In this document: in pieces, positions 35,674 to 60,164 of the stretch
How the letters are laid out: the number at the start of each line of letters is the position of its first letter
How positions within the stretch are numbered: the stretch's first letter is position 1
From: Rhodoferax sp. WC2427
Lineage (GTDB): Bacteria > Pseudomonadota > Gammaproteobacteria > Burkholderiales > Burkholderiaceae_C
Length of the DNA: 64,000 nucleotides
Assembly: GCF_040822085.1 (NCBI RefSeq)
Contig: NZ_CP162006.1
Location: forward strand, 62,001 to 126,000
Direction of reading: 5' to 3'
The notes under the pieces: generated by a model
The model's input: the letters and a program-made list of their open reading frames with translations, nothing else
The model's database searches: none
Told to the model about the DNA's origin: nothing
Position numbers and translations under genes: made by a program

Positions 35674-36468
35674 GTGAGCACCCCCAACCGCACCGCCACC
35701 CGCGTCCGCCACGAGCTGAAATTTCGCCAGCTGAGCGTTGTGCGCACCCAGCAGCTCACACCCCACATGGTCCGCATCACGCTGGGCGGGCCCGATCTGG
35801 CGGGCTTCACCAGCCCGGGTTTTGACGACCACGTGAAAGTTTTCTTTCCCGACCCGGTGACCGGCGCACTGGTATGGCCCGGCGGCGCCGAAGGCGGCCC
35901 GCGCCCCACCATGCGCGACTACACGCCGCAGCACTTCGACCCGCAAGCTCTTACCCTGGTGATCGACTTCGCGCTGCACGATGCCGGCCCGGCCACCACC
36001 TGGGCGGCGCAGGCCCAGGTGGGCCAGGTGCTGGGCGTGGGCGGCCCGCGCGGCTCTTTCATACTGCCGACCGACTTTGACGGCCACCTGCTCATCGGCG
36101 ACGACACCGCCATTCCCGCCATCGCCCGGCGCCTGGCCGAACTGCCTGCCGGAGCCCCCGCGCTGGTGTTGATCGAAGTAGATGGCCCTGAAGACGAGCA
36201 AGCCCTGCCCAGCACCGCCCAGGCCACCGTGGTGTGGGTGCACCGCCAGGGCCAGCCCCATGGCCGCCAGCCGCTGCTGCTGGAGCGCCTGCGCGCCCTG
36301 GCTTTGCCACCCGGCGACATCCACGCCTGGGTGGGCTGCGAAACCCACACCGCCAAGGCCTTGCGGGCACACCTGGTGGGTGAACGTGGCGTACAGCCGC
36401 AATGGACCAAGGCGGCAGGTTACTGGCGCCAGGGCAGCGCGGCCACACACGATGCCATCGAGGCCTGA
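35674..36468 (+). CDS. yqjH: Siderophore-interacting protein, NADPH-dependent ferric-chelate reductase
   Basis: 264 residues from GTG 35674, immediately after the yqjI stop, with GGAAAG as ribosome site. FAD-binding siderophore-interacting fold: PHMVRITLGGPDL, RDYTPQHFDP, GPRGSFILP and the C-terminal GDDTAIPAIARRL and VGCETHTAKALRAHL. YqjH releases iron from ferric chelates in the cytoplasm, and its control by a nickel-sensing regulator links iron supply to metal stress. No siderophore genes are close. Confidence 0.9.
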   Translation: MSTPNRTATRVRHELKFRQLSVVRTQQLTPHMVRITLGGPDLAGFTSPGFDDHVKVFFPDPVTGALVWPGGAEGGPRPTMRDYTPQHFDPQALTLVIDFALHDAGPATTWAAQAQVGQVLGVGGPRGSFILPTDFDGHLLIGDDTAIPAIARRLAELPAGAPALVLIEVDGPEDEQALPSTAQATVVWVHRQGQPHGRQPLLLERLRALALPPGDIHAWVGCETHTAKALRAHLVGERGVQPQWTKAAGYWRQGSAATHDAIEA

Positions 36469-36480
36469 TCTGGGGAAAAG

Positions 36481-36710
36481 TTGGCTTGCCTCTTCTTCTA
36501 ATACTTCTATTAATCAAATAGTAGTAGTAGTAAGCATGGCCTCTGCATGTGGATAAGTTGTGATAAGCCTTACAGGTCAAGGACTTAGCCCATTTTGACG
36601 GCTGTGCGTGACCTTGCTTTTCTGCTGTCGCCACAATATGAACAACTTTGGCGGATCGATACAAGCTGTGGATAACTGTCTGCTTATGCAAAAACTATCC
36701 ACAGGCTTTG
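36481..36710 (+). other. OriC-like DnaA-box module A
   Basis: Reading left to right: TTCTATTAAT (36505-36514), a (TAG)4TAAG run (36519-36534) like a DnaA-trio, a perfect DnaA box in reverse (36548-36556), a spacer with a 22-bp block identical to module B (36603-36624), a second perfect reverse DnaA box (36667-36675), TTATGCAAA (36684-36692) and CTATCCACA (36695-36703, one mismatch). It fills the gap upstream of a glutaredoxin-like gene. The same ordered set of blocks recurs in inverse orientation at 57190-56969. Replication function is inference; no dnaA, dnaN or parAB is nearby. Confidence 0.7.
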
Positions 36711-36758
36711 CCGGGACGTGGCTGGGCTATGCTGCAGGTTTAGTTCCAAGGAAATCCG

Positions 36759-37124
36759 ATGCCCCGTTTCGTCCTCGAAGAAGACCGCATCCACCCCGCC
36801 ATCCGCGACAAGGTGGCCGCTTCGCAGCGGGCCATCGTGCAAGAGGTGCAGGCAGCCGTGGCGGCGCATGCCGTGGTCGTGGTGGGGATGCGGGCCAATC
36901 CGTTTCCGCGCAAGGCCCGTAAGGCGCTGGATGCGGCACGGGTGCCGCACCATTACCTGGAGTACGGCAGCTATCTGAGCATGTGGCGGGAGCGTGGCGC
37001 TTTGAAGATGTGGACCGGCTGGCCCACCTTGCCCATGGTGTTCGTGCGGGGCACGCTGGTGGGCGGATGCACCGATCTAGAAAGGTTGATCCAGACCGGT
37101 GAGCTAGCCAAGATGCTCGGCTAG
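36759..37124 (+). CDS. Glutaredoxin-like protein lacking the catalytic cysteines
   Basis: 121 residues. The C-terminal 80 residues follow the monothiol-glutaredoxin pattern: VVVGMRANPFPRKARKAL, a TLPMVFVRGTLVGG cis-proline and glutathione-site block, then DLERL. The active-site CPxC/CPYS is replaced by NPFP, so classic thiol chemistry is not possible; the only cysteine is in GGCTDL. It could still bind glutathione or an Fe-S cluster by other means. AAGGAA lies 8-13 nt upstream. It lies directly downstream of oriC-like module A. Confidence 0.8.
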   Translation: MPRFVLEEDRIHPAIRDKVAASQRAIVQEVQAAVAAHAVVVVGMRANPFPRKARKALDAARVPHHYLEYGSYLSMWRERGALKMWTGWPTLPMVFVRGTLVGGCTDLERLIQTGELAKMLG

Positions 37125-53778: not shown

Positions 53779-55068
53779 TTACGCAGCTACAAACTCATTC
53801 CACTTCTGGACCATGTAGTTGTTTTCGTCCATCAGTGCGTTCCAGCAGGCGATGCCGCCCATGCGGGCTTCGTAGCTGCCGCCGTCGCGGGTCGCGCCGG
53901 TCTTGGCCAGCAGGTCGCCGTTCGGGCCCTTGATGTCCTGGGTGGCGGGCTTGCCTTCCATCCAGTAGGCCCACTCGTAAGCTTCCATCTTGGACTTGGC
54001 GGTTTCCAGCACGGCGCTGTAGTAGCCCTGGCGGTTGAGGTAGGCACCGGCCCAGCCGTCGAGGAACCAGTTGATGAACTCGTAAGCACCGTCCAGGGTC
54101 TTGCCCTTCAAGGTAGCTGGCAGGCCGAAACCGGCAGCCCAGGCGCGGTACCCTTCCTTCAGCGGCTGGAAGGTGCAGGCGATGCCCTTGGTGCGCACGG
54201 CGGTGACGGCAGGCGACCACATCGACTGGATCACCACTTCGCCGGACGACATCAGGTTGACCGACTCATTGAAGTCTTTCCACAGTGCGCGGAACTGGCC
54301 TTGCTTCTTGGCTTCGATCAGGGTCTTGATGGTCAGGTCGATTTCCTTCTTGGTCATGTTGCCTTTGTCAGGGTATTTGTAGATACCCATGGCTTCGACC
54401 ACCATCGCCGCGTCCATGATGCCGATGGAGGGGATGTTCAGAATTGCGGCCTTGCCTTTGAACTCGGGGTTCAGCAGCTCGGCCCAGGAGGTGATGGGGC
54501 GCTTGATCAGGTCGGGACGGATGCCCAGCGTGTCGGCGTTGTACACGGTGGGGATCAGCGACATGAACTGGGTGGGCGTCTTGGAGAACACCTTGGATTT
54601 CTCGCCTTCCAGGAAGATCACCTTCTTGGGCGCCGTGCCCTGGTCGCCCACGGCCTTGCCGTTGACCATGCCGGTGGTGAACAGGGTGGTGATCTTGTCG
54701 GCGTTCTTGATGCGCTTGACGTCAATGCCCTTGAGGTTGCCGGTGGGCACGATCTTCTTCAGCGAAAAGTATTCGGTGTCGATCAGGTCGAAGCTGTTGG
54801 GCGCGGTGACGGCGCGCTTGGTCACGTCGTCGGTGGTCACGGCCACGTACTGGATGGTGATGCCGGTGTCGGCCTTGAACTTTTCGGCAATCGCTTTGTC
54901 CTGGTTCACCGCGGTGCCCAGGTAGCGCAGCACGATGGGTTCAGCAGAGTGCACCGCCGGGAAGATGCCGGTGGCCAAAATGCCAGCCGTGCCCTTGAGC
55001 AGCGAGCGGCGCTGCATGGTGGCCTTCAAGGCATTGGTGGGTTCAGGAAGTACGTCGGACATGGTCAA
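53779..55068 (-). CDS. Polyamine-type ABC importer binding protein with Tat-like signal
   Basis: 429 residues. Near the start lies QRRSLLKGTAGILATG, a twin-arginine-like signal, cut about residue 41 (VHSAEP). PotD/PotF-like fold (LRYLGTAVNQDKAIAEKFKADTGI, LIDTEYFSLKKI, GKAAILNIPSIGIMDAAMVV, EFINWFLDGWAGAY). It is longer than PotD and its ligand residues were not checked, so the substrate may be a related cationic or zwitterionic compound. 27 bp after the ATPase gene. Confidence 0.88.
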   Translation of the reverse strand: MTMSDVLPEPTNALKATMQRRSLLKGTAGILATGIFPAVHSAEPIVLRYLGTAVNQDKAIAEKFKADTGITIQYVAVTTDDVTKRAVTAPNSFDLIDTEYFSLKKIVPTGNLKGIDVKRIKNADKITTLFTTGMVNGKAVGDQGTAPKKVIFLEGEKSKVFSKTPTQFMSLIPTVYNADTLGIRPDLIKRPITSWAELLNPEFKGKAAILNIPSIGIMDAAMVVEAMGIYKYPDKGNMTKKEIDLTIKTLIEAKKQGQFRALWKDFNESVNLMSSGEVVIQSMWSPAVTAVRTKGIACTFQPLKEGYRAWAAGFGLPATLKGKTLDGAYEFINWFLDGWAGAYLNRQGYYSAVLETAKSKMEAYEWAYWMEGKPATQDIKGPNGDLLAKTGATRDGGSYEARMGGIACWNALMDENNYMVQKWNEFVAA

Positions 55069-55094
55069 AACTCCTAGGGTTGCGGGTAGAAAAA

Positions 55095-56171
55095 TTAAGC
55101 GGCGACAGGAACAGATACGGGGCCGAGCGGGTGGGCGGCCTCGGGGGCCCAGGCCAGTTGCACAGCTTCGGCCACGCGGTAGGGGCGGGCGGCAAAGCGG
55201 GCTTCGGACACCATCACCGAGAACTCGGCGGTGGAACTGGCGGTCTGGGCCACGCCGGGTTTTTGCAGGCCCAGCAGCACATAGGTGCCCTGGTACTCCA
55301 CATCGCTGACCACGGCGCGGATGTTGTCGGGGCCGTCGGCCACGGCGGCCTCTGGCGGGATGATTTGCATGTGGTCGGTGCGCACACCGATCTTGCCGCG
55401 TGGCGTGTCCAGCACGTTGTGGCCGCCCATGAAGCGCGCCACAAATTCGCTGGCCGGGCGGTTGTAGACCTCGTGCGGGCTACCCACCTGCTCGATCAAC
55501 CCATGGTTCATCACCACCATGGTGTCGGCCAGGGCCATGGCTTCTTCTTGCGAGTGGGTGACGTGGATGAAGGTCAGGCCCAGCTCTTTCTGCCAGCGGC
55601 GCAGCTCGGCGCGCATCTGGATGCGCAAAAACGGGTCGAGGGCCGACAGGGGCTCATCGAGCAGCAGCACCTTGGGCTGGGTGATCAGCGCACGGGCCAG
55701 GGCCACGCGCTGCTGCTGGCCGCCCGACAGCTCGCTGGGCGTGCGGTCTGCCAGGTGGCCCATGGCCACCCGCTCCAGCAAATCCTTGGCCTTGGCATGC
55801 CGCTCGGCCTTGTCCATGCCCTTCATCTTCAGGCTGAAGGCCACGTTGTCGAGTGCGCTGAGGTGTGGAAACAGCGCAAAGCTCTGGAACATCATGGCCG
55901 TGCCGCGCTCGGCAGCAGGCAGGTCGGTGATGTTGCGGTTTTCCAGCAGGATGTCGCCGCTGGTAACCGACTCGTGTCCGGCCACCATGCGCAGCGTGGT
56001 GCTTTTGCCGCAGCCCGAGGGCCCCAGCAAACAACAGTAACTGCCGCTGGCGATGCGCAGGTTGATGGTGTCAACGGCCGGCTTGGACGACCCATAGCGC
56101 TTGGTCAGCGCAATGATTTCGATGGCCGAAGGTGCGGTAGTAGAAGTGGAAGGGGGGGTAGGAGCGGGCAT
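55095..56171 (-). CDS. Polyamine-type ABC importer ATPase (PotA-like)
   Basis: 358 residues with a Ser/Thr/Pro-rich lead. Walker A GPSGCGKST, Q-loop MFQSFALFPHL, signature LSGGQQQR, Walker B LLLDEPLSALD, switch THS and a C-terminal TOBE domain. First gene of the operon that runs to 50336. Confidence 0.93.
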   Translation of the reverse strand: MPAPTPPSTSTTAPSAIEIIALTKRYGSSKPAVDTINLRIASGSYCCLLGPSGCGKSTTLRMVAGHESVTSGDILLENRNITDLPAAERGTAMMFQSFALFPHLSALDNVAFSLKMKGMDKAERHAKAKDLLERVAMGHLADRTPSELSGGQQQRVALARALITQPKVLLLDEPLSALDPFLRIQMRAELRRWQKELGLTFIHVTHSQEEAMALADTMVVMNHGLIEQVGSPHEVYNRPASEFVARFMGGHNVLDTPRGKIGVRTDHMQIIPPEAAVADGPDNIRAVVSDVEYQGTYVLLGLQKPGVAQTASSTAEFSVMVSEARFAARPYRVAEAVQLAWAPEAAHPLGPVSVPVAA

Positions 56172-56179
56172 ACCCGTCC

Positions 56180-56233
56180 CCTATGCATAGGCCGTGCCAG
56201 CTCTGCGTACCGTGCGATTGTGAAATTGCGTAC
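56180..56233 (-). promoter_or_regulatory. Promoter region of the polyamine-type operon
   Basis: A perfect 12-bp palindrome CCTATGCATAGG (56180-56191) lies 9 bp ahead of the ATPase start, and TGCGTAC occurs twice in direct repeat (56204-56210, 56227-56233). Candidate sites for the operon's GntR regulator. Confidence 0.5.
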
Positions 56234-56300
56234 AAAACTGCACCGGGAATGTGCGCAATCTACCCCTGCACCGACAGAACGCGCAGGCTTGGTGCGCTAG

Positions 56301-56951
56301 CTACCGGCTATTTGCCGCAATCTGCCGCAAAGCCTGCTCAAACACCTCGGGCGGCTGGCCTCCAGAGATCAGATGCCGGTCGTTGATGATGATGGCGGGC
56401 ACGGAATGGATGCCTTGGCTGGTATAAAACTCTTCGCGTTGGCGCACTTCCTCGGCAAATGCGCCGGATTCCAGAATCTCCCGCGCCCGCACCGGGTCCA
56501 GCCCCACCTGTTCGGCCACCTGCACCAGCAAGGCGTGGTCGCTGGGGTTTTGCCCCAGGGTGAAGTAGGCATCGAACAAGGCTTGTTTCAGGGCGTGCTG
56601 GTGGCCTTCGAGCTCGGCCCAGTGCAGCAGGCGGTGCGCGTCGAAGGTGTTGTAGATGCGGTTGCGCTGGCCCAGGTTGAAGGTAAAGCCCAGTTCCGCC
56701 CCGCGGGCGCGGATGTTTTCCTTGTTGGCCGCCGCCTGGGCCGGGGTGGAGCCGTATTTGCGCGCCAGGTGCTCGGTGGTGTCTTCGCCTTCCGGGGCCA
56801 TGTGCGGATTCAGCTCGAATGGCTGGAAGTGCAGCGTGGTGGTGATGCTGTCTGCCACGCGCTCCAAAGCCTGTTCCAGCGACTTCAAACCCACCACACA
56901 CCAGGGGCAGGACACGTCCGAGACGAAATCAATTTTGAGTTGGGTTGCCAT
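56301..56951 (-). CDS. FrnE-like DsbA-family oxidoreductase
   Basis: 216 residues, no signal peptide, so cytoplasmic. Thioredoxin fold with CPWC (15-18), HFQPFELNPHM and the cis-proline block GIHSVPAIIIND. FrnE-type enzymes are involved in polyketide tailoring or redox stress resistance; the local role is not known. AGGAAA precedes ATG 56951. It lies directly downstream, on the minus strand, of oriC-like module B. Confidence 0.9.
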   Translation of the reverse strand: MATQLKIDFVSDVSCPWCVVGLKSLEQALERVADSITTTLHFQPFELNPHMAPEGEDTTEHLARKYGSTPAQAAANKENIRARGAELGFTFNLGQRNRIYNTFDAHRLLHWAELEGHQHALKQALFDAYFTLGQNPSDHALLVQVAEQVGLDPVRAREILESGAFAEEVRQREEFYTSQGIHSVPAIIINDRHLISGGQPPEVFEQALRQIAANSR

Positions 56952-57701
56952 ATTTTTCCTGGTCTTGAAAAGCTGTGGATAGTTCCGGCATAACCGGACA
57001 GTTATCCACAGGGAACGCGGTGATTGAAAAGTTGTTCATTTTGGCGTGACACCAGAAAAGCAAGGTCACGCACACCTGGCAACATGGGATAAGCTGTTGA
57101 TTTAAAAGAACAAAACAGGCTTACCCACAGAAGAGCCGCATGCTTACTACTACTACTATGTATTAATAGAACCATTAGAAGAATAGCCAAACACAAAGTC
57201 CGTTGGAAACGGGTGGATTTTGGGTCCGGCCGGTGCGTTCTTTGGCCCCTTTTCTCGGCTAACAGTTTTGCTCCAGAGAAAAGCCGCGGCATGTGTTCTG
57301 TATCCCCGAAGTCCGAGCTGGTGCACAGGGCACCCACGAAGGGGTGCTTATGTAAATTTTTTGTATAAAAGCAACAAATTAGTACAAACACTTAGTTTGG
57401 CTAAGTAACTAAATTTCTAAAGTTGCGGTGTCCGAAAGTGCTCCACAAACCGCATACAAAGCGAATTTTGTGAGTGAAAGAGGCAGGTGTTGCTACGTCC
57501 CTGTGTTTGCCTGCATGTCTGGAATGCAGGTTAAATATGTGTAAATTTGTAAATATCATGTAACTTACTTACATAAGCTACAAAGAAATTTACGGTGCGT
57601 TTACAAATGCCTTCCGGGGGCTGGCGTGCGGGCCGGCATTTTCAGGATCTCGTGGCTGGAAGATTTCTTCTGGCCAACCCCAAAACCAATGGAGTCCCAA
57701 G
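56952..57701. other. 750-bp region without a gene
   Basis: Holds module B at 56969-57190. From 57200 to 57700 the DNA is unusually AT-rich and contains many GTAA/TTAC motifs (for example around 57555-57585, TGTAACTTACTTACATAAG), which probably form the porin promoter and regulator sites. A 62-codon frame at 57220-57408 and others on both strands show no ribosome site or recognisable product. Confidence 0.6.
56969..57190 (-). other. OriC-like DnaA-box module B (inverted relative to module A)
   Basis: Plus-strand coordinates: TGTGGATAG (56974-56982, one mismatch), perfect DnaA box TTATCCACA (57002-57010), a 22-bp block identical to module A (57053-57074), a full match to the IHF consensus (57090-57102), TTACCCACA (57121-57129, one mismatch), the (CTA)-run corresponding to TAAG(TAG)4 (57143-57158) and ATTAATAGAA (57162-57171). 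Order, spacing and sequence match module A read on the opposite strand. Replication function is inference. Confidence 0.7.
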
Positions 57702-58970
57702 ATGAAGTTCTTTAAATTGCGAGCCACCGTCGCCGCCGCATCGTTGTTGGCCGCTGGTGGCCATGCTTTTGCCCAGGCGGCAAACGACGTGCCTGTGGAT
57801 CCCACGTTGGAGAAGCAGATCACCCAGGTGGTCAAGAAGGTCACCGATGCCACCGGCCTGGAGTTCACCGGCTACCTGCGCACCGGTTTCTATTCGGCAG
57901 CGAACGGCCAGGCCAAAGGTGGCTACTCGCTCGGTGGTGACCTGCAAAAGTACCGTCTGGGCAATGAAGGCGACAACTATTTCGAAGTCCTGATCGGCAA
58001 GAACTGGGACCTGGGTGGCGGCCTGAAGTGGGGCGTGCACTGGATGCCCAACTACTACAACGGCGATACTGGCACCCCCCAAATCTATTCCGATATCAAG
58101 GGGCTGGACTTTGCGCCCAACGTCAGCTTCTGGGCGGGTCAGCGCTTCCACCGCGTGCAAGACATCCATATCGTGGACAACTGGCTCATGCAAGACGGCG
58201 ACAACTACGGTGCCGGTGCCGATGGCATCGACGTAGGCTTTGGCAAGTTGAACCTGGCGGTGTACAGCGACGGCAGCTCGGGCAACAGCAACAAAAGTAC
58301 CAATAATGCGCGCCGCGCCAACTTCCAGTTGCGCGACATGCCGGTCAACCCTGGCGGCAAGCTGACCCTGACCGGCGGCGTGGTGAATGGCACCTTTGCC
58401 CAGGGCTCGAATGGTGGCGCATTGGGCCTGCTGCACAACCAAAGCGATTTCATAGTGCCGGGCATGAACAACTCCTTGTTCCTCCAGGGATCGACGGGCC
58501 ACGCCAGCCTGAGCGGCCAGTTCTACAACCTGGACGACTCGGCGGGCGTAGCGGCCGCAGGTGCCAAGCAAAGCCGCGTCGTGGACGTGATCAACTGGCA
58601 AAACGGCCCGTTCGGTGGCCAGGCTTTGCTGGGTTACCAAACCCTCAAATTGGACAATTCGCCGACCCAGAAAGATCTGTCGTTTGGTGGACGTGTCTCT
58701 TACGGTGTGGCCAAGAACGTCAAGCTGCTGGGTGAACTGGGCCTAACCCAGCGCAAGATTGACGGCCAAGACAAGCAGCACCTGACCAAGGGCACGTTTG
58801 CCGTGGCTTTCTCGCCCAACACCGACTTCTGGACCCGTCCTGAGTTCCGCGTGTACGCGACCCGTGCCAACTGGAACGATGCAGCTGCGGCGGCCAACAG
58901 CTCCTCGTTTGGTGCCAATGGCCGCACCAAAGCCACCACGGTGGGTGTGCAAGTCGAAGCCTGGTGGTAA
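57702..58970 (+). CDS. LamB-like carbohydrate porin
   Basis: 422 residues, signal peptide to about 24 (GGHAFAQA). After a short helical lead it shows the maltoporin pattern: GLEFTGYLRTGFY, RLGNEGDNYFEVLIGKNW, ISF-type strands, WAGQRFHRVQDIHIVDNWLMQDGDNYGAGADGIDVG, and ends in a membrane-type terminal residue W (VEAWW). LamB/ScrY proteins are trimeric 18-strand pores for oligosaccharides in the outer membrane. It is not in an operon; the GH3/thu and GH2 clusters are plausible users. Confidence 0.9.
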   Translation: MKFFKLRATVAAASLLAAGGHAFAQAANDVPVDPTLEKQITQVVKKVTDATGLEFTGYLRTGFYSAANGQAKGGYSLGGDLQKYRLGNEGDNYFEVLIGKNWDLGGGLKWGVHWMPNYYNGDTGTPQIYSDIKGLDFAPNVSFWAGQRFHRVQDIHIVDNWLMQDGDNYGAGADGIDVGFGKLNLAVYSDGSSGNSNKSTNNARRANFQLRDMPVNPGGKLTLTGGVVNGTFAQGSNGGALGLLHNQSDFIVPGMNNSLFLQGSTGHASLSGQFYNLDDSAGVAAAGAKQSRVVDVINWQNGPFGGQALLGYQTLKLDNSPTQKDLSFGGRVSYGVAKNVKLLGELGLTQRKIDGQDKQHLTKGTFAVAFSPNTDFWTRPEFRVYATRANWNDAAAAANSSSFGANGRTKATTVGVQVEAWW

Positions 58971-59000
58971 GCCCTTAGTTTTTGCGAGGAACTGAGTTTT

Positions 59001-59048
59001 GCCCGTGCCGGTGCCGTTATCTCCAACGGTACCGGCACGGGCTTTTTG
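59001..59048 (+). terminator. Rho-independent terminator of the porin gene
   Basis: Long stem between GCCCGTGCCGGTGCCGTT (59001-59018) and AACGGTACCGGCACGGGC (59025-59042), one mismatch, loop ATCTCC, followed by five T residues and more T-rich sequence. Confidence 0.95.
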
Positions 59049-59065
59049 TTTTTGAAATGGAAGCT

Positions 59066-59890
59066 ATGAGAAATCCCCACCCATGGATCACCACGGCGGT
59101 TTGCGCTGCCAGCCTGCTGCTTGTACCCACGGCCCACGCAGGCCTGTTCGATGGACTGTTTGGCACCAGCAAGGCGGGCGATGCCAGCCAGCGGACCAGC
59201 TGGGAGATCCACGACTTTTCCAGCGTCCAGCTGGCACCGCGCGAGGCCGGGACAGCCGACAACCGGCATCCGGCGTTGATTGCGGCCCGCACGCTGGAAC
59301 AGCTGCTGTCCTCGGTGCGCACCACCGTCGGCAAGGTATCCCAGCCGCTCATGACGCCCTACGAGGCCGAGCAGGTGTCTGAACCCTTGGCGCAGGCCCT
59401 GGCCAGCGCTACACCGGGCCAGGATGTGCTGCTGCTGAGCAGCGAGCGGCGCGTCAAGAACTCCATCGAACCGCCCATGGCCGTGACCGCCCGCGTGTTC
59501 GTCAATGCCGATGGCCTGCAACTGGTGGTGCGCGATGCGCGTTTTGATTTTTACGACAAGTGGCGTGGCACGGGTATCACGCCCAGTTTTGGCTACGGCT
59601 CGCGCAGTACGGCGGGCTCGGCGCAATTGCAGAGTAATCTGGGCACCAACCCCCGGGCCGACTGGCTGGCGTTTCCGCTGACGGCCGCCATGGCCCCTGC
59701 GCTGGTGCCTGCCCCTGTGCCGACACCCGCCCGCGCCAGTGTGGCTGCTCCGCTACCTGTGCAGCGTGATGCCGCCTTCTATGACGCCCAGGAACTGCGC
59801 CTGCAAAAACTGAAAAGCCTGCGTGAAAAAGACCTGATCACCGACCAGGAGTACCAGCAGAAGCGCCAGGAGATCCTGAAAGATATGTGA
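59066..59890 (+). CDS. Exported protein with C-terminal SHOCT-like domain
   Basis: 274 residues from ATG 59066 (an ATG at 59057 is equally possible; neither has a good ribosome site). Signal peptide to about 24 ([10 protein letters not shown]). A middle beta-rich part of about 150 residues is unrecognised. A Pro/Ala linker precedes a SHOCT-like tail ([33 protein letters not shown]), which usually promotes oligomerisation. Possibly a periplasmic or envelope protein. Its 3' end overlaps the convergent YkgJ-like gene by 53 bp. Confidence 0.75.
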
Positions 59891-60164
59891 CTGGTTCGCC
59901 CGGCCGGGTGGCAATTTCCAGCTGCGTGAGGTAGCGCATGGCGTGCCCGTTGCTGCTGCCGCACATGTCCCGTGCGGGCTGTAGCTGGCCGCACACCGCC
60001 GGGCGCTCGGGCTGGCCAAAAATGCGGCACAGGTTGGCCGCGTCAAGCTGCACGCAGCGCACCCCGGCGGGCTTGCTGATGCCGTCCACCACCGGCATGC
60101 CGGGGATGGGCGAGCTGATGCTGGGGGCAATGCAGCAGGCGCCGCAGCCTAGTCTGCATTCCAT
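59838..60164 (-). CDS. YkgJ-like cysteine-cluster protein
   Basis: 108 residues. Start [24 protein letters not shown], with C3, C7, C10 and C11 followed by four more conserved cysteines (CVQL, CRIF, VCGQ, MCGS): the YkgJ/UPF0153 metal-cluster pattern. About 20 residues longer at the C-terminus than most relatives, and that tail overlaps the convergent SHOCT gene. Presumed zinc or Fe-S protein of unknown role. Confidence 0.83.

Follow-up and report, generated by a model that had tools for sequence, protein, structure and literature searches.

Bacteria are usually held to use one origin of replication per chromosome. Here, we describe a 64,000-nucleotide stretch of the Rhodoferax sp. WC2427 chromosome (G000:C1:62001-126000, hereafter the window, to which bare positions refer) with two non-coding modules in inverse orientation, A (36500..36708, plus strand; G000:C1:98500-98708) and B (56969..57177, minus strand; G000:C1:118969-119177), each of which, in our judgment, is quite probably a complete copy of oriC, the DnaA-dependent origin of replication of a Rhodoferax-type chromosome. 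The evidence comes from the anatomy of the modules, their conservation throughout the family, the conservation of each of the two copies among Rhodoferax genomes, and the association of skew minima and parS sites with the modules in relatives. An earlier note, based on the letters of the window, had offered four readings of module A, namely a chromosomal origin, a duplicated origin fragment, a DnaA titration site and a DnaA-controlled promoter, among which the first is now the best supported.

Modules A and B consist of the same blocks in the same order: an AT-rich stretch with TTCTATTAAT, a (TAG)4 TAA run, a 14-bp spacer, DnaA box 1, a 22-bp core (TGTGCGTGACCTTGCTTTTCTG) identical in both, box 2 at 119 bp from box 1, and, 28 bp further on, box 3 in the opposite orientation. 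In A, the putative unwinding element (36474..36533, plus strand; 32% GC) is the least stable 60-bp segment, at the 99.75th percentile of instability for the window, and the DnaA-trio run occupies 36519..36533 on the plus strand, with (TAG)4 at 36519-36530 (trios as defined in PMC8287927). Past the trios by 14 bp lies box 1, a perfect TGTGGATAA (36548..36556, minus strand), followed by the core (36603..36624, plus strand), box 2, again a perfect TGTGGATAA (36667..36675, minus strand), and box 3, the one-mismatch CTATCCACA (36695..36703, plus strand). The corresponding parts of B are the putative unwinding element (57140..57199, minus strand; 30% GC; 99.77th percentile of instability), the trio run (57144..57158, minus strand, with (TAG)4 at 57158-57147), the one-mismatch box 1 (57121..57129, plus strand; TGTGGGTAA at 57129-57121, or TTACCCACA on the plus strand), the perfect box 2 (57002..57010, plus strand) and the one-mismatch box 3 (56974..56982, minus strand; CTATCCACA at 56982-56974). 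Thus, the (TAG)4 run, the two perfect boxes and the one-mismatch box that the earlier note had placed in A are all there, as is the inverted relative about 20 kb away with the same block order and the same core; B (57177-56969) is, however, a complete duplicate, not the fragment that the note had considered.

The two modules are homologous, with 75% identity over approximately 222 bp (blastn, E 3.8e-33). No further substantial match exists in the 4,778,649-bp chromosome, where five additional blastn hits are 17-24 bp long, with E of at least 2.15. Counting perfect and one-mismatch sequences, the window has 8 DnaA boxes, which form two clusters of three boxes within 230 bp, and because such a cluster occurred in none of 200 windows generated from a first-order Markov model, the clustering is not attributable to chance. 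Two features of a DnaA-type oriC, a group of three or more DnaA boxes (at most one mismatch) and an adjoining AT-rich unwinding element, are present in A as well as in B. The basal unwinding system (BUS), as described in PMC8287927, comprises a box with at most two mismatches, a spacer of 0-16 bp and at least three NAN trios; the trio-proximal boxes of A and B have 0 and 1 mismatches, respectively, the spacer is 14 bp, and the run consists of five units, TAG TAG TAG TAG TAA. Reversal of the trio-proximal box inactivates such a system, according to PMC6669920; PMC10225481 was also consulted. The TAG run is less remarkable when taken alone, given that TAGTAGTAGTA has 5 matches in the genome, 4 in A and B and 1 elsewhere, compared with 8 for the reversed control. 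As a separate observation, GC content falls to 0.59 in the surroundings of module B (54000-60000), the window as a whole having 0.65. Two other kinds of element were considered and rejected: an RNA element, since an Rfam scan of the window yielded no match at the gathering score, and a plasmid origin, since module A had no match at E <=1e-3 among 72,556 plasmid records.

Conservation of the module was assessed with R1, a sequence-only model built from 26 modules, the E-values of which are rough and which was applied with strict filters in the large surveys. R1 recovers A and B with E of 6.3e-38 and 5.3e-39, respectively, and matches 381 of the 399 genomes of the family (345 of the 350 good ones), in 135 of 141 genera; the spacing between trios and boxes is nearly constant across the aligned modules. 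A preceding blastn survey, replaced by the model survey, had detected the module in 22 of 299 family genomes only, probably because the modules are too diverged for blastn. Beyond the family, an order-level search at E <=0.01 matched 51 of 150 genomes, 4 of these being family members (best match outside the family, 2.8e-13), and a class-level search at the same cutoff matched 31 of 114, including 2 family members (best outside, 2.3e-15), most outside matches being far weaker than these best ones. Because R1 also matches outside the family, weak second matches within it may be distant or chance. At least two matches were counted in approximately 123 of the 399 family genomes, a hand count among the matches listed that takes in partial and weak matches, for instance, a contig-end piece in G039. 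Where several copies are present, they are arranged in tandem at distances of 0.3-0.8 kb (e.g., G294, G262, G190 and G174), dispersed in direct orientation at 3.5-30 kb (e.g., G072, G256, G147, G300 and G004), or inverted with 10-47 kb between them (G000, the genome described here, and G311, G243, G162, G272 and G132); in G044, an inverted pair is 4 kb apart. In one module (L051, G150:C21, approximately 481-540), the trio run has grown to about 20 TAG units, a microsatellite within an oriC module.

Within Rhodoferax, each of the two copies can be followed separately. Orthologues of A were identified in G311, G039 and G243, and those of B in the same three genomes and G370; both G162 copies and the remaining G370 copies were left out of the assignment. 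In A (n = 4) and likewise in B (n = 5), none of the 43 trio and box positions varies, compared with 17-69 differences per pair with G000 in the other 167-169 columns (Fisher p 0.026 to 6e-9), so that the boxes proposed in the earlier note are indeed kept among relatives. In the phylogenetic tree, the B copies of the five genomes form a clade (support 100/97), and the A copies of G000, G311 and G039 group together (86/92). Both modules of Rhodoferax are accordingly older than these species and separately constrained. Copies also cluster by locus rather than by genome in two other genera (G187 with G262, and G072 with G256).

In the genome analyzed here, dnaA is located at the start of the single contig (ATPase domain, C1:346-828), which places A 98 kb and B 119 kb from it and bears out the remark in the earlier note that neither module adjoins dnaA. 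The dnaA-upstream region of this genome shows no similarity to the modules, an outcome that the earlier note had listed among those refuting its reading: the region has two perfect boxes but no TAG run, and R1, run over the entire genome at E <=0.05, found A and B only, with no match upstream of dnaA. The origin reading nevertheless stands because relatives carry the module beside dnaA, a position that is a common, albeit not universal, trait of oriC, absent here and present in several relatives. In G080 and G260, the module occupies the whole interval separating dnaA from dnaN, with both genes confirmed by Pfam, and in G272, it adjoins a Pfam-confirmed dnaA; by coordinates, one or both modules are just downstream of dnaA in G176, G099, G132 and G174. 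Weak matches (E 1e-4 to 3e-8) in four genomes of other families (G428, G471, G541 and G460) are compatible with that position as well. Among 29 family genomes in which dnaA was mapped, a module is directly beside dnaA in 6 and all modules found are 17-264 kb away in 21; of the other 2, G254 probably has it beside dnaA across contig ends, and in G121, a copy immediately precedes dnaA at a contig end. These genomes, like those used for the arrangements and for parS, were chosen in part for completeness and for having two matches, and the proportions are therefore not those of a sample. The ancestral site of the module is probably beside dnaA.

Two kinds of origin marker were located in relatives. 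Cumulative skew was computed for 400-kb stretches chosen to contain both dnaA and the modules, so that the minima are those within the stretch. In G072, the keto-skew minimum is 20 bp and the GC-skew minimum 5 kb from a module, with dnaA 260 kb away, and in G300, both minima are 3-5 kb from the modules, with dnaA 178-188 kb away. Whole genomes were searched for parS, using what we take to be its consensus, with at most one mismatch; the reversed-pattern control gave 0 hits in seven genomes and 1 in G217. In all 8 genomes, the distance from parS to the nearest module is 10-27 kb, compared with 80-287 kb to dnaA; parS sites are most often near the origin, as stated in PMC7333895. By skew minimum and parS, the modules appear to mark the origin in these relatives better than dnaA does. 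In the genome described here, GC skew is -0.031 over the 20 kb to the left of A and +0.032 in the interval between A and B; the values in G311 are -0.034 and +0.033, from orthologous sequence and hence not independent, and the interval in G243 has +0.043. The sign to the left of A is that of a left replichore and the sign of the A-B interval that of a right replichore, which points to A as the main start, although gene direction may confound this. For comparison, mean GC skew of the two replichores is +0.023 and -0.019 (standard deviation 0.021 and 0.024; n = 17 and 18 samples). On the keto-skew curve of the genome described here, A is within 82 counts of the minimum, and dnaA is 2552 counts above it.

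Several observations weigh against the interpretation of A and B as origins. In G311 as assembled, the skew minimum is near dnaA. An 88-kb segment carrying dnaA is inverted between G311 (G311:C1:4452819-4541000) and G000 (5.3 kb to -78 kb), and with this segment reversed, the keto-skew minimum of G311 is 139 bp from A; the GC-skew minimum is even then 67 kb from A, where the curve is 34 counts above it. This correction assumes that G311 is the inverted genome, and we infer as much because the order of dnaA, first copy and second copy is shared by G000, G162 and G243. Over 379 kb around dnaA, the skew of the chromosome studied here is flat and noisy, with minima at disparate places (GC, 41.7 kb; keto, 165.8 kb; k-mer, 72-78 kb), and gene direction may confound skew in general. 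Locating the switch in this genome through GGGNAGGG sites or k-mer skew gives a broad, not decisive, result: the best change point of GGGNAGGG is at 42-64 kb, with A, dnaA and B worse by 2.1, 4.2 and 5.2 log units, respectively, and that of GGGCAGGG alone is at -65.6 kb, with A and dnaA tied. The skew-minimum check proposed in the earlier note accordingly came out in favor of the modules in the 400-kb stretches of G072 and G300, did so in G311 only after reversal of the inversion, and remained broad and noisy in the genome itself. Two perfect opposed boxes are present upstream of dnaA, outside the window (G000:C1:4778530 and 4778580), perhaps serving dnaA autoregulation. With respect to descent, the poorly resolved tree does not unite the A copies in a single clade, G243_x grouping with G294_1 and G162_y being placed elsewhere, for which reason the orthology of A in G243 rests on its glutaredoxin neighbor; the G162 copy at 95 kb has no DsbA neighbor within the 1.5-kb flanks searched; and copies cluster by genome in G174, G007 and G121. 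Two further observations concern the same chromosomes: between the close relatives G311 and G000, the 88-kb inversion shifts dnaA, and the modules stay put; and GGGCAGGG is the most leading-strand-biased octamer (74 vs 28 in 35 sampled stretches of the chromosome), a bias resembling that of the KOPS motif of Escherichia coli.

If A and B are origins, DnaA would bind box 1 beside the trio run and the convergent pair formed by boxes 2 and 3; its assembly on the TAG trios would then unwind the AT-rich stretch and allow the helicase to be loaded, by analogy with the BUS of Bacillus subtilis. In evolution, the module was probably first located between dnaA and dnaN and then copied and moved within the family, and the dnaA-linked copy would have been lost in Rhodoferax. 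The change of sign of base skew at A makes this module the most likely main start over evolutionary time. The role of B is probably that of a second, competent origin, which would be used less often or as a backup; because it keeps an unwinding element and a trio run, it is predicted to be able to fire. That Rhodoferax and many of its relatives run two, sometimes three, complete DnaA-type oriC copies on a single chromosome, with more than one firing in the same cells, is a bolder proposition that we regard as tentative and somewhat short of an even chance.

Alternatively, A alone could be the origin, with B a former origin kept as a site of DnaA titration or reloading, like datA or DARS. The skew changes sign at A and not at B, and B has three conserved DnaA boxes, both in keeping with such a role, to which we nonetheless assign a rather low probability: B retains an AT-rich element, a trio run and their spacing, none of which a titration site would need. 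Sites of the datA or DARS type have DnaA boxes without an unwinding element, whereas B has trios and the AT-rich element, and titration alone, one of the options in the earlier note, leaves their conservation unexplained. It is considerably less probable that A and B constitute one bipartite origin bridged by DnaA over 10-47 kb. A bipartite origin consists of two box clusters with one common unwinding element, whereas A and B each have an AT-rich element and trios of their own; spacing within the genus is 10-47 kb, which is, to our knowledge, far beyond that of any known bipartite origin; and there are relatives with a single match, such as G217 and G080. In support of the bipartite arrangement are the tandem copies 0.3-0.8 kb apart in some relatives and the known bipartite origins of B. 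subtilis and Helicobacter pylori (PMC4403523).

A role of the modules as promoters through which DnaA would control redox genes, as the earlier note had also suggested, is one that we hold to be very improbable. Immediately downstream of A and B are thioredoxin-fold genes, of the glutaredoxin and DsbA families, respectively, and these neighbors recur within the genus. A survey by tblastn over module loci, typically with flanks of about 1.5 kb and shorter in some cases, found glutaredoxin beside modules in only 4 genomes (G000, G311, G243 and G132) and a DsbA-family gene in only 5 (G000, G311, G039, G243 and G370); Pfam-checked neighbors in seven relatives are instead dnaA/dnaN, minC, GGDEF, E1-E2 ATPase, GAF/PAS and sbcD-type genes. 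A scan of 36400-36800, on the A side only, detected one terminator-like site and no sigma-70-like promoter, a weak negative given that shuffled sequences average only 0.2. A promoter would, moreover, leave the trios and the AT-rich element unexplained, and with no sigma-70-like match in that interval and so few redox neighbors, we rejected this reading. Least probable of all, in our estimate, is a scenario in which dnaA still marks the true origin, A and B being mere relics or decoys. The two perfect boxes upstream of dnaA and the skew minimum of G311 as assembled would fit this scenario, against which the dnaA-upstream region has neither a TAG run nor a model match, parS (8 of 8 genomes) and skew (G072 and G300) follow the modules, and relics would not retain 43 of 43 positions.

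The interpretation of A and B as two oriC copies can be set beside several known systems. Like the BUS of the B. subtilis oriC (PMC8287927), the modules have a box, a 14-bp spacer, five NAN units and an AT-rich flank, and those of some relatives lie between dnaA and dnaN; unlike it, they occur here as two complete inverted copies, separated from dnaA by 98 and 119 kb. Among the putative double origins reported by Gao in 2015 (PMC4403523) is that of Ralstonia pickettii 12D (dnaA, hemE), likewise a betaproteobacterial chromosome with two predicted DnaA-type origins. Those predictions used box clusters, indicator genes and skew in single representative genomes, whereas here both copies are homologous and complete, with conserved orthologues in several genomes of the genus. 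The naturally fused chromosomes of Vibrio cholerae NSCV1 and NSCV2 also have two origins, both active in NSCV1, which are, however, of different types, unlike the two modules of the same DnaA type described here (PMC6284228). With the bipartite origins of B. subtilis and H. pylori, the modules share DnaA-box clusters at two places, and differ from them in that each place has an unwinding element of its own and the two are 20 kb apart. In titles and abstract openings, leaving aside most subscription journals and the DoriC tables, where it may be known, we found no report of an oriC that is paired, or not linked to dnaA, in Comamonadaceae or Rhodoferax.

On the preferred interpretation, two homologous oriC copies are under constraint in several genomes of one genus, and multi-copy arrangements, whether tandem, dispersed direct or dispersed inverted, recur in other genera. 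Natural multi-origin bacterial chromosomes thereby become testable by ordinary read-depth sequencing, and were more than one copy to fire, the one-origin rule would be broken as a stable, inherited state across the family. The distances between modules and dnaA also suggest that oriC-finding tools anchored on dnaA would misplace the origin in many family members by tens to hundreds of kilobases.

The genes next to the two modules are probably incidental companions. Beside A is a glutaredoxin-family gene (36759..37124, plus strand; PF00462), a neighbor also in G311, G243 and G132, and beside B is a DsbA-family gene (56301..56951, minus strand; PF01323), a neighbor also in G311, G039, G243 and G370. 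In another genus, at locus L074 (G132:C3, near 280061), the dnaA-distant copy of the module also adjoins a glutaredoxin, which shares 67% identity with the one next to A, and the glutaredoxin-linked site may for this reason be older than Rhodoferax. Finally, a large stretch, repetitive internally with a period of approximately 318 bp, is present at G311:C1:4431000-4437500 and, in G000, at -94 to -88 kb.
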